From Candidatus Desantisiibacteriota bacterium (GTDB lineage Bacteria; JACRDZ01), in the NCBI GenBank assembly GCA_016209155.1, contig JACQWU010000134.1:1-14120 (forward strand): DNA of 14,120 nucleotides. The letters run 5' to 3'. This document shows positions 938-14,120 of the stretch, piece after piece. The first letter of the stretch is position 1. Each line of letters begins with the position of its first letter. Made by a program: the position numbers and the translations under genes. The notes below the pieces were generated by a model that was not told the DNA's origin, made no database searches, and worked only from the letters and a program-made list of their open reading frames with translations.

Positions 938-2077
938 TTATATAAATTCAATTAAAACATCATTATTTAAATATATTCCCCGTCGTGTCAGCCGCAAAAA
1001 ATCGGGAGTATCTATAATCAATTTTTTTGATACCAATCTTTTAATAGTATCTCCCCATATATCATCAACCTTTATTCCAAAACGCGTATAGAATTCATGT
1101 TTAGACAATCCTTTTATAAGCCGCAAATTTAGCATAATTGCTTCTTTTATTTGTTTTTCTCTTGAAATATATTCTTTTGATAAACCGGCGTTTTCTTTTT
1201 TATTTATCTTTTCTATATAATTTATTATATTTTTTATATTTGATATCCGTCTTTCTCCAATATATGATACCGCACCGGCTCCAAGTCCCAGATATTTTTT
1301 ATTATGCCAGTAAACTAAATTATGTTTGCATTCCCTGTCCGGTATGGAGAAATTAGATATTTCATACTGTCTGTATCCCCGTTTTTTTAAAAAATTAATA
1401 CCATAACGATACATTATAAACTCAGCATCAGGGGATACAATTTCAAGTTCTCCCTGTTTTATTTTACGGGTTATAGACGTTCCATATTCATAAATAAGGC
1501 CGTACATGGAAATATGTTCAGGTCTAAGTTTAACCGCTTCACAGAGTGTCTCCCTCCAACTGCCATATATCTGACCCGGGATAGAAAAAAGAAGATCAAT
1601 ATTAATATTATCAAAACCTGCTTTCCGCGCAAGTTTAAATGAATTGTAGACATCCTCTTTTGAATGAACTCGTCCCAAAACTTTCAATAAAACCGGATTG
1701 AAAGTTTGAACTCCCATACTAAGGCGCGTAACACCCGATTCTTTCAATATTTTTATTTTTTCCGCTGATAATGTTCCGGGATTGGCTTCAATGGTGACTT
1801 CTATATTATTCTCCCATAAAAAAAAAGTTTTAACAACTGTCAAAAGCTCTTCGAGAGCTTTTTCAGTTAATATGGTCGGAGTCCCGCCGCCGATATATAT
1901 AGAAAAAATATTTTTCCCTGCATGGTCTCTGCTTTTTATTTCAATTTCTTTTTTCAAAGCTTTTATATATCTATCCGCTAAATACGGATCAAATAAAGAG
2001 GAATTGAAATTACAATAATTACATCGTGCGGCACAAAATGGAATATGGATATAAAGCCCGATAGAATTTTCTTCCAT
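938..2077 (-). CDS. hemW: HemW-type radical SAM protein (haem chaperone)
   Basis: A 379-residue protein with the radical SAM cluster motif CX3CX2C (C15, C19, C22 in IPFCAARCNYC), the glycine-rich SAM-binding GGGTPT (63-68), and the HemW/HemN-like C-terminal part with HNLVYWHNKKYLGLGAGA. Length and the IHIPFC start match HemW, formerly annotated as oxygen-independent coproporphyrinogen III oxidase. HemW proteins carry a [4Fe-4S] cluster and bind haem for insertion into target proteins rather than oxidising coproporphyrinogen. True HemN is longer and has an additional N-terminal region. Start ATG 2077-2075 has a weak upstream AGGA. It lies 48 bases downstream of the iscS-like gene on the same strand and is probably co-transcribed with it. 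The multihaem cytochrome elsewhere in the window shows that the cell uses haem. Confidence 0.88.
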   Translation of the reverse strand: MEENSIGLYIHIPFCAARCNYCNFNSSLFDPYLADRYIKALKKEIEIKSRDHAGKNIFSIYIGGGTPTILTEKALEELLTVVKTFFLWENNIEVTIEANPGTLSAEKIKILKESGVTRLSMGVQTFNPVLLKVLGRVHSKEDVYNSFKLARKAGFDNINIDLLFSIPGQIYGSWRETLCEAVKLRPEHISMYGLIYEYGTSITRKIKQGELEIVSPDAEFIMYRYGINFLKKRGYRQYEISNFSIPDRECKHNLVYWHNKKYLGLGAGAVSYIGERRISNIKNIINYIEKINKKENAGLSKEYISREKQIKEAIMLNLRLIKGLSKHEFYTRFGIKVDDIWGDTIKRLVSKKLIIDTPDFLRLTRRGIYLNNDVLIEFI

Positions 2078-2125: not shown

Positions 2126-3277
2126 CTAAAGCGGCGAGAGATCTCTTAATTTTTTCACTGTTAGTCCTGCGGCCACTGCCACTTTTTCAACCTGTTCTGT
2201 ATTATTAGAATGTCCAAGTGTTAAAACCATTGAACCATGGGCTTCCTCATGTTTTAATCCTATTGCCAGCAGCACATGAGAAGCCTGAAGTGTTTTAGAT
2301 GTACAGGCTGAGCCTGTGGCAATCTGGATATTATACATATCCATATAAAGCAATATACTTTCACCTTCTATACGGGTAAACCTAAAACTTGCATGATGAG
2401 GAAGTCTATCTGTCGGATGACCTGTCAGATAGGATTCCTCAATTTTTAAAATCTCTTTTACCAGACTATTTCGTATTTCTTTTAATCTTGCGCTTTCTTT
2501 TTCCATCTCATCTTTTGCTATTCTTGCCGCCTCTCCCATTCCCGCAATAGCAAATAAATTCTCTGTTCCTGATCTTAATCCGCGTTCCTGTCCGCCGCCC
2601 GGCATAACTGTTTGTATTTTTACTCCGGGTTTAACATATAATGCTCCTGCACCCAAAGGCCCGTATATATCGGTTGAAGATAATGTTAATAAATCTATCC
2701 CGTCCTTCTGTACATCAATCGGGATACGTCCTGCACTGGCGGTGGCATCCACATGCAGATAAACACCGCGATCATGAACTATTTTGCTCACCTTGTCTAT
2801 AGGCTCAATTGTCCCGATTTCATTATTTGCGTGCATTACTGAGGTTATTATTGTATCTTTACTCAAAGTATCTTCAAGCTTCTTAAGATCAATAACACCA
2901 TATGAATCAACAGGAACGAGATTTAATTGAAAACCATTTTTTGTAAGATCTTTCATTGGATTTAAAACTGACATATGTTCAATTGCGCTTGCCGCAACTT
3001 TTTTACCGATTGATAAATTTCTAAGCGCTGTACCCCTTATCGCAAGATTATTTGACTCTGTCGCACCTCCGGTAAAAATAATACATTCCGGATTTTCCGC
3101 ATTAATAAGTCTTGCAACATGCTCTCTGGCGTTTTCTATCCCTCTTCTTGCCATAACTCCCTGTGAATGACGCGATGAAGGATTACCGAAACCATTTGTC
3201 AAATAATGTTCAGCAAACTCCGCTACTCTTTTATCAACAGGCATTGATGAACCATGATCCATATATATTTTTTCCAT
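2126..3277 (-). CDS. IscS/NifS-like protein lacking the PLP lysine
   Basis: A 383-residue fold-type I aminotransferase-like protein of the IscS/NifS group. Recognisable blocks are GNPSSRHSQG (31-40), GGATESNN (70-77), IEH (99-101), HANNEIGTIEP (149-159), HVDAT (175-179), GGGQERGLRSGTEN (227-240) and the catalytic-loop ATGSACTS (320-327, Cys325). The block that normally reads S-x-H-K-x-Y-G-P reads SSTDIYGP here, so Asp203 stands where the PLP-forming Lys should be. The usual Gln after HVDAT is Ala180, and the conserved Arg of the S-I-R-x-S-x-G block is Val351 (GSMVLTLG). It is therefore unlikely to be a normal PLP cysteine desulfurase. Archaeoglobus fulgidus IscS, as I recall, has the same Lys-to-Asp change and uses its loop Cys as a cluster ligand with IscU. 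Shine-Dalgarno GAGGTGAT precedes ATG 3277. Neighbours are tusA-like upstream and hemW downstream; no iscU is in the window. Confidence 0.85.
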   Translation of the reverse strand: MEKIYMDHGSSMPVDKRVAEFAEHYLTNGFGNPSSRHSQGVMARRGIENAREHVARLINAENPECIIFTGGATESNNLAIRGTALRNLSIGKKVAASAIEHMSVLNPMKDLTKNGFQLNLVPVDSYGVIDLKKLEDTLSKDTIITSVMHANNEIGTIEPIDKVSKIVHDRGVYLHVDATASAGRIPIDVQKDGIDLLTLSSTDIYGPLGAGALYVKPGVKIQTVMPGGGQERGLRSGTENLFAIAGMGEAARIAKDEMEKESARLKEIRNSLVKEILKIEESYLTGHPTDRLPHHASFRFTRIEGESILLYMDMYNIQIATGSACTSKTLQASHVLLAIGLKHEEAHGSMVLTLGHSNNTEQVEKVAVAAGLTVKKLRDLSPL

Positions 3278-3382: not shown

Positions 3383-3628
3383 TTATTTTTTTATCTTTTT
3401 AATTAAAAAAGTAAACTCTGCTCCTTTTTTCTCAAATTTTATAATCTCATGTCCTGCCCTCTTTGCCCATCGCTTAATATCCTCCTCTGCCGCAGGGTCA
3501 TCTGCGAGTACTTTTAGTATTTCTCCCTGTTTAAGTTCATCCATCTTTTCTCTTGTCATTGCAATCGGCATAGGACAATAATAACCCACACAATCCATTT
3601 CCGCATTATATATTATATCTTCATCCAT
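3383..3628 (-). CDS. TusA/SirA-family sulfur carrier protein
   Basis: An 81-residue protein with the family's CPxP motif (C18-P-M-P21 in YYCPMPIAMTREKM) following a beta strand, then LKQGEILKVLADDPAAEEDIKRWAKRAGHE, which is the usual beta-alpha-beta arrangement of TusA-like proteins. The Cys of CPxP carries persulfide in TusA and passes sulfur on to partners. A second Cys (C13) lies five residues before it. Length is normal for the family. ATG 3628 is preceded by GGGGGAA. It is the first gene of a minus-strand cluster with the iscS-like gene and hemW, and a promoter lies about 100 bases upstream (3733-3762). In bacteria TusA normally receives sulfur from IscS; here the neighbouring IscS lacks its key Lys, so the sulfur source may differ. 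Its exact subfamily (TusA, YedF or YeeD) cannot be set from this sequence. Confidence 0.88.
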   Translation of the reverse strand: MDEDIIYNAEMDCVGYYCPMPIAMTREKMDELKQGEILKVLADDPAAEEDIKRWAKRAGHEIIKFEKKGAEFTFLIKKIKK

Positions 3629-5003: not shown

Positions 5004-5039
5004 AATATTTGAAATTACTAAATGTTCTGGAGGTATCAT

Positions 5040-6734
5040 ATGAAGAAGAATCTTTTAGATACAAAAACAGCTTCATGGGGTGAATTAATTAAAAATGGAA
5101 GAACATTCTTAGTTCCAAGATTTCAAAGAGATTATTCCTGGGAGGAAGAACATTGGGACGATCTTTGGTATGATTTGATTAATCTGGATGAAGAAGAATT
5201 TCATTATATGGGTTATTTGGTATTACAAAATAAACTTACAAATGAATATATTATTATTGACGGACAACAAAGGCTGACTACATTAAGTATTATTGCTTTA
5301 GCTGTAATTCAACTTATTACAGAATTGATTGAAAATGATGTTGATCGAAAAAACAACGAGGAACGCAAAAAATTATTAATGGATTCATTTCTTGGATATA
5401 AAGACCCTGCTTCCTTAATAGCTAAAAGCAAATTAACACTTAACCGTAACAATAATGATTTTTATCAAAGTTATTTAATGCGGCTCCGAAAGCCAACAAC
5501 AAAAAGTAAACTTAAACCTTCAGAAAGACTCCTTATTGATGCATTCGAATATTTTTATGGAAAAATTAAAAAGAAATTTGAATTGGATATTTCAGGCGAA
5601 AAATTAGCTGATTTCCTTAATAAAAAAGTTGCGGATCAGTTAATGTTTACATTTATCGCAGTTGATAGTGATCTGAATGCTTTCAAAGTATTCGAAACTC
5701 TTAATTCCAGAGGTGTAAAACTGTCCCCAACAGATTTATTGAAAAACTATTTGTTTATGGTTGCAGCAGAACATGGAGAAACAGATATCGATCAGGCAGA
5801 AAGACAGTGGCAAAACATTAATAATATTTTAGGTAATATAGAATTCACTATATATCTTAGACACTTTTGGAATTCGAGAAATATAATTGCCAGAAAACAA
5901 AATTTATTTAAAGTTGTAAAAACTTCAATTACTAATGCTGCTCAAGCTTTTGATTTACTGGATAAATTGGAAAATAATGCTCAACTTTATGCCGCGTTTT
6001 CACAACCTGAAGATGAGCTTTGGAAACAGGCTGAGCAATACGAATATATCAGGCAGTTAAAATTGTTTGGGGTAACTCAATGTTATCCACTATTACTTAC
6101 GGCTCATGGAAAATTTGATGCGAATGAATATGCCCGTTTATTAAGATGCTGCTCGATTATTGCTTTCCGCTATAATATAATTGGCGGATTAAATCCAAAT
6201 AAACTTGAAGAGGAATACAATAACACTGCGCGAGAAGTTTATAATAACAAGCTTAAAAACACGAGTGAGGTATTTCAAAATCTTAAAGCAGTTTATATTT
6301 CTGACGAAGAGTTTGAAGGCGCATTTGCCGCAAAAAGTATTATCACAAAAGGAAAAGGGACAAAACTTGTTAGATACATTCTTTTTTCTTTAGAAAATCA
6401 GATAAGTAATAAAAAATATGACTTTACCGATAGTTCAATAACTATTGAACATATATTGCCGGAAAATCCTCCTCAAAATTGGGAAACATATTTCCCTATA
6501 GAAGAACAAACTCAATTGGTATTTCGTTTAGGTAATTATACTCTTCTGGAAGAATCAAAAAACAAAAAATGCCAAAATGATGTATATCTTACGAAAAAAG
6601 ATATTTATAAAACAAGTAGCTATAAATTAACAGCGCAAGATAGCATATTTAATGAGTGGAATCCGGAGAGAGTTTCTGAGAGACAAAGAAAATTGGCAAA
6701 ATATGCTAAATCTGTTTGGAAATTTGATATATAG
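5040..6734 (+). CDS. DUF262/DUF1524 (GmrSD-like) defence nuclease
   Basis: The N-terminal half is a DUF262 (ParB/Srx-like) domain: LVPRFQRDYSW (24-34), MGYLVLQ (57-63), the nucleotide-site motif IDGQQRLTT (73-81) and the FETLNSRGVKLSPTDLLKN block near the domain end. The C-terminal part is a DUF1524 His-Me finger nuclease domain with IEHILPENP (His471), then RLGNYTLLE and a conserved Asn-rich NKKCQND. The two domains in one chain match single-polypeptide GmrSD-type, NTP-dependent type IV restriction enzymes, which cut modified phage DNA; related proteins act with phosphorothioation or BREX systems. I choose ATG 5040 (564 residues) because GGAGG (5029-5033) sits six bases before it. The in-frame ATG at 5022 lies upstream of that site. 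It stands alone, with no methylase or modification genes near it. Confidence 0.87.
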   Translation: MKKNLLDTKTASWGELIKNGRTFLVPRFQRDYSWEEEHWDDLWYDLINLDEEEFHYMGYLVLQNKLTNEYIIIDGQQRLTTLSIIALAVIQLITELIENDVDRKNNEERKKLLMDSFLGYKDPASLIAKSKLTLNRNNNDFYQSYLMRLRKPTTKSKLKPSERLLIDAFEYFYGKIKKKFELDISGEKLADFLNKKVADQLMFTFIAVDSDLNAFKVFETLNSRGVKLSPTDLLKNYLFMVAAEHGETDIDQAERQWQNINNILGNIEFTIYLRHFWNSRNIIARKQNLFKVVKTSITNAAQAFDLLDKLENNAQLYAAFSQPEDELWKQAEQYEYIRQLKLFGVTQCYPLLLTAHGKFDANEYARLLRCCSIIAFRYNIIGGLNPNKLEEEYNNTAREVYNNKLKNTSEVFQNLKAVYISDEEFEGAFAAKSIITKGKGTKLVRYILFSLENQISNKKYDFTDSSITIEHILPENPPQNWETYFPIEEQTQLVFRLGNYTLLEESKNKKCQNDVYLTKKDIYKTSSYKLTAQDSIFNEWNPERVSERQRKLAKYAKSVWKFDI

Positions 6735-13434: not shown

Positions 13435-14120
13435 ATGCATTTAAGTATATGGCTTTTAATTCTGGCAGTTTTTATTTTCCCTATTAAAACCATAAGTGAA
13501 GAAAAAGAAGAAAAAAACTGCAATTCATGTCATGAGGATCACGGTAAAAGCAATATTCTGGTTTTAAAGGCTCCCATACTTGAAATATGTGCCCAATGTC
13601 ATGATTACAAAGAGGATGATTTTAAAAAAATGCATCAGGGAATTTTCATTAAAAACTGCGTCAAATGCCATAACCCTCATGCCGGCACAAATGATAAGCT
13701 GATATATACAAATCAGCATACTCCATTTTTAAAGCGTCAATGTAAAGATTGTCATATACAAAACAATGATACTACAAAACTGAAAATTCCTCTTACCCAG
13801 ATATGCCGGAGCTGCCATATAGAAAAAAATATTCTAAACCAGGAAAGTAAATATCATTTACCATTTTTAGCAGGTCAATGCACTTCCTGTCATGATCCCC
13901 ATACTTCTGAAAATCCTAATATATTAAAGCTTAACTCTGAAGAACTTTGTATAACTGGCTGCCATTTACCAATACGCAATGAAAAAAATGAACATATGCC
14001 TGTTAAAACAAGAGAATGCTTGAAATGCCACCTCCCCCATCAATCATCAAACAAATATTTGCTAAAAATACTAAATAATAAAAAAATGACGGCTCTAAAC
14101 GATCTATGCCAGGAATGCCA
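13435..14120 (+). CDS. Periplasmic multihaem cytochrome c, paired-CXXCH type, 3' truncated
   Basis: The frame opens at ATG 13435 (GGAG 11 bases upstream) and runs off the window. The 228 visible residues start with a signal peptide (WLLILAVFIFP core, cleavage about residue 20). Haem-binding motifs are CNSCH (29), CAQCH (52), CVKCH (75), CKDCH (103), CRSCH (124), CTSCH (149), an unusual six-residue CITGCH (172) and CLKCH (195). A last CQEC (225) is cut at the edge, where the next two bases (CA) fit His. The repeated C-x-x-C-H-x-P-H followed about 25 residues later by another motif is the paired (doubled) CXXCH pattern of periplasmic electron-transfer cytochromes in anaerobes. It is 38 bases downstream of the prenyl synthase and probably in the same operon. 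Confidence 0.9.
   Translation, partial: MHLSIWLLILAVFIFPIKTISEEKEEKNCNSCHEDHGKSNILVLKAPILEICAQCHDYKEDDFKKMHQGIFIKNCVKCHNPHAGTNDKLIYTNQHTPFLKRQCKDCHIQNNDTTKLKIPLTQICRSCHIEKNILNQESKYHLPFLAGQCTSCHDPHTSENPNILKLNSEELCITGCHLPIRNEKNEHMPVKTRECLKCHLPHQSSNKYLLKILNNKKMTALNDLCQEC

Follow-up and report, generated by a model that had tools for sequence, protein, structure and literature searches.

Escherichia coli IscS, an active PLP desulfurase with K206, Q183 and R354 in place, binds both TusA and IscU near its loop Cys (PDB 3LVJ and 3LVL; PMC2854127) and gives sulfur to TusA as the acceptor; in these complexes TusA Cys19 lies opposite IscS Cys328, about 4 Å away, and the footprints of TusA and IscU on IscS are non-overlapping yet competing (PMC2854127). 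An IscS homologue without the Schiff-base Lys is already known from Archaeoglobus fulgidus (PDB 4EB5 and 4HVK; IscS–IscU complex), in which Asp, Ala and Leu take the places of Lys, Gln and Arg and the loop Cys is kept, and such a protein is therefore not new in itself. As cited in PMC7585200, A. fulgidus IscS shows no desulfurase activity and its Cys ligates a cluster on IscU. Methanosarcina acetivorans IscS1, which also lacks the Lys and formed inclusion bodies (PMC7585200), is a Lys-less archaeal paralogue alongside a Lys-containing one in the same genome, a likeness that we draw from its description only. Sulfur carriers of the DsrE family are represented by Allochromatium vinosum DsrEFH, in which DsrE Cys78 is persulfurated by sulfide alone and the sulfur is passed on, but this system serves sulfur oxidation via DsrC and has no link to IscS or IscU (PMC3397948). 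Two further Fe–S systems come close: MIS is a minimal machinery of the IscS–IscU type, but is described with a cysteine desulfurase, and SMS uses sulfide without a cysteine desulfurase, but via SmsCB rather than an IscS-like protein (PMC12192291). A literature search of partial coverage found neither a published link of Lys-less IscS to TusA or DsrE nor a report of a second, bacterial Lys-less clade with the same partners, and the tusA/dsrE/iscU setting of Lys-less IscS described here appears to be the new part.

The window analysed here is a 14,120-nucleotide stretch of DNA from Candidatus Desantisiibacteriota bacterium (contig JACQWU010000134.1). On its minus strand, at positions 2126–3277, lies a gene that we call iscS(D), an intact open reading frame (ORF) with an ATG start, free of internal stops and frameshifts, which encodes a Lys-less IscS homologue of 383 amino acids. 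An earlier note, made from the sequence alone, had placed and numbered this protein correctly, and its reading of the active site was confirmed by alignment to E. coli K-12 IscS (from NC_000913.3): K206 is replaced by Asp203 (codon gat, 2669–2671, minus strand, counted from the ORF start at 3277), Q183 by Ala180 and R354 by Val351, and C328 is kept as Cys325 (codon tgt, 2303–2305, minus strand). H104 and D180 are likewise retained as His101 and Asp177, and no replacement Lys was found elsewhere in the S-S-T-D-I-Y-G-P block. The earlier note did not mention that H205, which we take to be a PLP-phosphate ligand, is changed to Thr202, nor, as the most telling evidence, that a tusA gene lies directly upstream and that relatives of the gene form a tusA–dsrE–iscS–iscU operon. 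The parallel with A. fulgidus that it had drawn proved right, and because Asp, Ala and Leu occupy the same three sites there, the loss of the Arg is also common to both proteins. We considered a sequencing or assembly artefact at the Lys site and excluded it because Asp or Glu also stands at this position in 53 further homologues.

By profile searches the protein is a full-length member of the IscS/NifS family (fold type I, class V aminotransferase; Pfam Aminotran_5, 245 bits), whose NCBIfam NifS/IscS matches stay under the equivalog cut-offs (TIGR03402, 411 bits against 531), unlike those of a paralogue on another contig of the same genome. Its top sequence match is A. fulgidus IscS (PDB 4EB5, 429 bits; 49–55% identity), and the closest solved structures to its AlphaFold model (mean pLDDT 93) are the A. 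fulgidus IscS entries 4HVK, 4R5F and 4EB5, with TM scores of 0.94–0.95. The loop of residues 324–328, which includes Cys325, falls below pLDDT 50, and this low-confidence segment of the model is reminiscent of the Cys328 loop in E. coli IscS, which is disordered. Among the residues expected of a cysteine desulfurase, the Schiff-base Lys, the substrate Arg and the Gln contacting PLP O3′ are absent and the persulfide loop Cys is present; the A. fulgidus pattern of Asp or Glu at the Lys site, loss of Arg and Gln and retention of the Cys is found in full.

To place these changes, we aligned 173 IscS-family proteins gathered by a genome-contig scan and whole-genome searches, later searches being used for checks. 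This main set comprised 100 proteins with both Lys and Arg, 54 with Asp or Glu at the Lys site (the window protein included), 18 with another residue there and one exception from the bacterial Lys-less clade (L084:5026–6186), which has the Lys together with Met and Leu for Gln and Arg, is adjoined by iscU and tusA, and is possibly an intermediate or a reversion. The loop Cys and His101 were present in all 173. In Lys-containing IscS, 64 alignment columns show one letter in at least 95% of the sequences; only seven of them drop below 50% in a Lys-less group, four being PLP or substrate residues (Q180, H202, K203 and R351), which makes the erosion chemically specific. The window protein and almost every archaeal member have jointly lost Lys, Gln, His202 and the substrate Arg. 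The contact of the PLP ring nitrogen, Asp177, persists in most members, with Asn in its place in nine archaeal ones (L145–L150 and L152–L154, with LHVNAT or LHMNAT); most of these nine Asp-type proteins also have GGP or AGP for YGP.

Phylogenetic trees, computed without the trait columns, grouped the Asp/Glu proteins as one archaeal clade (support 100/97; 97 in a 129-row tree) that contains both A. fulgidus IscS and the window protein, the latter nested among archaeal sequences at 60–73% identity. The bacterial Lys-less proteins formed another clade (100/99), and the two were separate in the quick tree of 129 rows. Two independent losses of the Lys were considered as a firm claim and dropped despite that tree, because a tree with all Lys-less proteins in one clade was not rejected by an AU test on 59 rows (p 0.53), and convergence is therefore not claimed. 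The well-supported clade, the eroded PLP and substrate residues and the invariant His101 and Cys325 argue, at the level of sequence, for the long-term loss of PLP desulfurase chemistry that the earlier note had proposed.

In the gene neighbourhoods, the archaeal Asp-type order is tusA–dsrE–iscS(D)–iscU, with ORFs that often overlap or nearly touch, and the bacterial Lys-less order is iscS–iscU–dsrE2–tusA; the DsrE proteins of the two orders match different Pfam families best, DsrE and DrsE_2. A tusA or dsrE gene adjoins 45/54 Asp/Glu and 13/18 other Lys-less loci (58/72 together), compared with 0/100 loci encoding both Lys and Arg, the flank lengths being similar and the sample, gathered by query searches, carrying a query bias. 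At the 54 Asp/Glu loci we counted TusA at 42, DsrE at 37 and IscU at 34, and iscU adjoins 14/18 other Lys-less and 53/100 Lys- and Arg-containing loci. When the association of Lys loss with tusA/dsrE is corrected for phylogeny, only about three independent contrasts remain, so that it cannot reach significance. The reactive Cys is invariant in these neighbours (TusA CPxP, 56/56; archaeal DsrE, 39/39; DsrE2, 7/7), and the three ligand Cys of IscU are kept in 49–50 of the sequences that cover them. Residues of the E. coli IscS–TusA interface are only partly conserved; at the contact of IscS E49 with TusA R31, a charge swap is suggested by the many archaeal pairs with Arg or Lys opposite Glu or Asp, but Lys-containing IscS varies at E49 too. 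The presence of tusA, dsrE and an IscU gene beside the relatives suggests that Fe–S clusters are built from a sulfur source other than cysteine.

One of the proteins (L201) matches the 4EB5 sequence at 99.7% identity, which makes its genome (G181) very probably that of A. fulgidus. Two iscS(D) copies occur there (L157 and L201), whose loci carry dsrE and iscU, with tusA at one copy, whereas the window gene is in a bacterium, lies beside tusA and hemW and has neither iscU nor dsrE at its locus. Only IscS(D)-type proteins of G181 score as IscS, and the same search found no Lys-containing IscS or SufS there.

A relay or platform is the best reading of a dead desulfurase that retains its sulfur-carrying Cys and whose gene usually accompanies those for IscU and/or persulfide carriers. 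Judging from sequence and gene order, we consider IscS(D) on balance probably a catalytically dead, PLP-independent IscS paralogue that acts as a persulfide relay and assembly platform fed by DsrE/TusA, and not as a desulfurase. The sulfur would stem from sulfide or another inorganic form instead of cysteine and be brought by carriers of the DsrE and TusA types, and TusA would pass it to, or share it with, Cys325 on the mobile loop; this Cys could then hand the sulfur on to IscU at its three-Cys site or act there as a transient ligand of a nascent [2Fe–2S] cluster, as in A. fulgidus. The direction would run from TusA through IscS(D) to IscU, opposite to the flow in E. coli, and the window copy would serve an IscU of the same genome whose gene lies away from this locus. 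The A. fulgidus IscS–IscU complex is a structural model of cluster assembly, for which DsrE and TusA now become specific candidates for the sulfur supply, and, if the relay is real, many archaeal and anaerobic bacterial genes annotated as cysteine desulfurase do not encode desulfurases.

Several observations count against this relay. In a further bacterial sample tusA or dsrE lay near only 9/25 Lys-less genes (0/5 Lys-containing ones), with iscU near 19/25; a Thermoplasmata subclade of 12 loci (L173–L184, the class of L009) has tusA and dsrE upstream in 10/12 but no adjacent iscU; five other archaeal loci (L187, L188 and L190–L192) have none of the partner genes; and neither dsrE nor iscU is present at the window locus. 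Moreover, because E. coli TusA accepts sulfur from IscS and competes with IscU, adjacency could also mean that IscS(D) gives sulfur to TusA or merely holds it. More tentatively still, we propose that DsrE/TusA sulfur passing via a dead IscS to IscU constitutes a distinct and widespread Fe–S route of anaerobic archaea and bacteria, which may have arisen twice, once in archaea and once in bacteria, in opposite gene orders and with DsrE or DrsE_2, and with at least one archaea-to-bacterium transfer.

The earlier note had suggested a cluster scaffold or a sulfide-dependent assembly factor. A role in cluster assembly is upheld by the iscU genes adjoining the relatives, no iscU lies at the window gene, and a purely passive scaffold is disfavoured, as the tusA gene upstream and the tusA–dsrE–iscS–iscU operon of the relatives favour a carrier-fed relay. 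On the passive account IscS(D) would only dock IscU and lend Cys325 as a ligand, free sulfide would be the source, and TusA and DsrE would serve tRNA thiolation and Moco. This is the published view of A. fulgidus IscS, as cited in PMC7585200, it fits the invariance of the ligand Cys (173/173), and sulfide does supply another archaeal Fe–S system, SMS (PMC12192291), but it predicts neither the exclusive tusA/dsrE association (58/72 versus 0/100) nor the invariant carrier Cys of the TusA and DsrE neighbours, and we regard it as doubtful.

An improbable alternative is that IscS(D) works as a hub for acceptors other than IscU, in which the sulfur it takes up goes on to TusA to thiolate tRNA or cofactors and Fe–S assembly is secondary. 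The layout of the window, tusA–iscS(D)–hemW with no iscU, would suit such a role, as would the Thermoplasmata loci with tusA and dsrE and no adjacent iscU; the iscU genes adjoining 34/54 Asp/Glu and 14/18 other Lys-less loci speak against it, and among the annotated flanking ORFs a tRNA-thiolation gene was identified beside none of the loci. Far less probable is a PLP enzyme of altered chemistry, binding PLP non-covalently and using another base or a partner for catalysis. His101 is invariant, Asp177 stands in most members, most phosphate-site residues are kept and, according to a published figure legend, PLP was modelled in 4EB5; however, the window protein and almost every archaeal member lack Lys, Gln, His202 and the substrate Arg all at once, nine of the archaeal members have lost Asp177 as well, and A. 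fulgidus IscS is reported, in PMC7585200, to be without desulfurase activity. That the window gene is a decaying pseudogene or neutral relic of lateral transfer into a bacterium is barely credible, for although it lacks dsrE and iscU neighbours and a normal NifS/IscS is present elsewhere in the genome, its 383-amino-acid ORF is intact, has the residues typical of the clade and reaches 73% identity with archaeal orthologues, its fold is predicted with confidence and the adjoining tusA is intact.

Of the partner genes, only tusA is present at the window locus. The tusA gene (3383–3628, minus strand) lies 106 bp upstream of iscS(D) on the same strand and encodes a TusA-family sulfur carrier (Pfam TusA, 90 bits against a cut-off of 28.6) that keeps its CPMP Cys, in DCVGYYCPMP. 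Its identity to the TusA proteins from the nearest archaeal iscS(D) operons is mostly 58–68%, and that to a TusA encoded with a second Lys-less IscS of the same genome only 33%. On the other side, 49 bp downstream and on the same strand, is hemW (938–2077, minus strand), encoding a radical-SAM heme chaperone (NCBIfam TIGR00539, 335 bits against a cut-off of 205), whose full-length matches were confined to bacteria, with none in the archaeal genomes tested; hemW marks the contig as bacterial, and we claim no role for it in the IscS(D) system. The G+C content over iscS(D), 39–40%, is the maximum of the window, the rest of which is mostly 27–37%. No archaeal-type DsrE was found in the genome, and a search for repeats at the locus gave nothing notable. 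The simplest account is that tusA and iscS(D) were jointly acquired by lateral transfer from an archaeon and inserted beside hemW; a chimeric contig in this metagenome-assembled genome (MAG) is unlikely. Elsewhere, the window contains a GmrSD-type (DUF262/DUF1524) restriction-endonuclease-like gene (5022–6734) and a multihaem doubled-CXXCH cytochrome gene (13435–14118) that runs off its end.

Of the checks proposed in the earlier note, the tree of Lys-less homologues placed the window protein in a clade with A. fulgidus IscS (100/97), and the search for a normal IscS and IscU, in a genome of 352 contigs (79% complete by a tool estimate, 2.3% contamination), recovered both. Contig C96 encodes a canonical NifS/IscS with Lys, Gln and Arg that scores above the NCBIfam NifS cut-off, and contig C65 carries a SufS-like gene. 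A further NifS, on C212 (L128/L006), is broken into ORFs of 114 and 188 amino acids with the PLP region missing between them. Contig C334 encodes the second Lys-less IscS in the order iscS–iscU–dsrE2–tusA (L125:4635–6929, minus strand). This protein of 362 amino acids has a short N-terminus, with about 50 residues missing, and reads HDCQCL at the six key residues, with Gln at the Lys site (SSSQIYGP), Cys for Gln, a Leu-type loss of the Arg and the loop Cys kept. Altogether the genome has four TusA and two IscU genes, the second IscU gene being on C337 with bacterial best matches. It lies in an rpmH–rnpA–yidD–yidC–jag region (L126:4497–4970, minus strand), and its product shows an apparent deletion of about eight residues right after the third ligand Cys (KMHCS-AAIDDYY).

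Some variation was seen among the other loci. Two of them (L155 and L156) have three tandem tusA-like genes upstream of dsrE–iscS–iscU, the middle one being the most diverged (about 29% identity to the window TusA), and the L155 copy nearest dsrE has CQAP in place of the usual CPxP. In the Asp-type IscS proteins of L173–L184 the loop reads SSSSPC and Gln occupies the substrate-Arg site, and a FeS_assembly_P (DUF59/MIP18-like) gene lies downstream of at least two bacterial Lys-less loci (L230:3465–3818 and L236:392–775).
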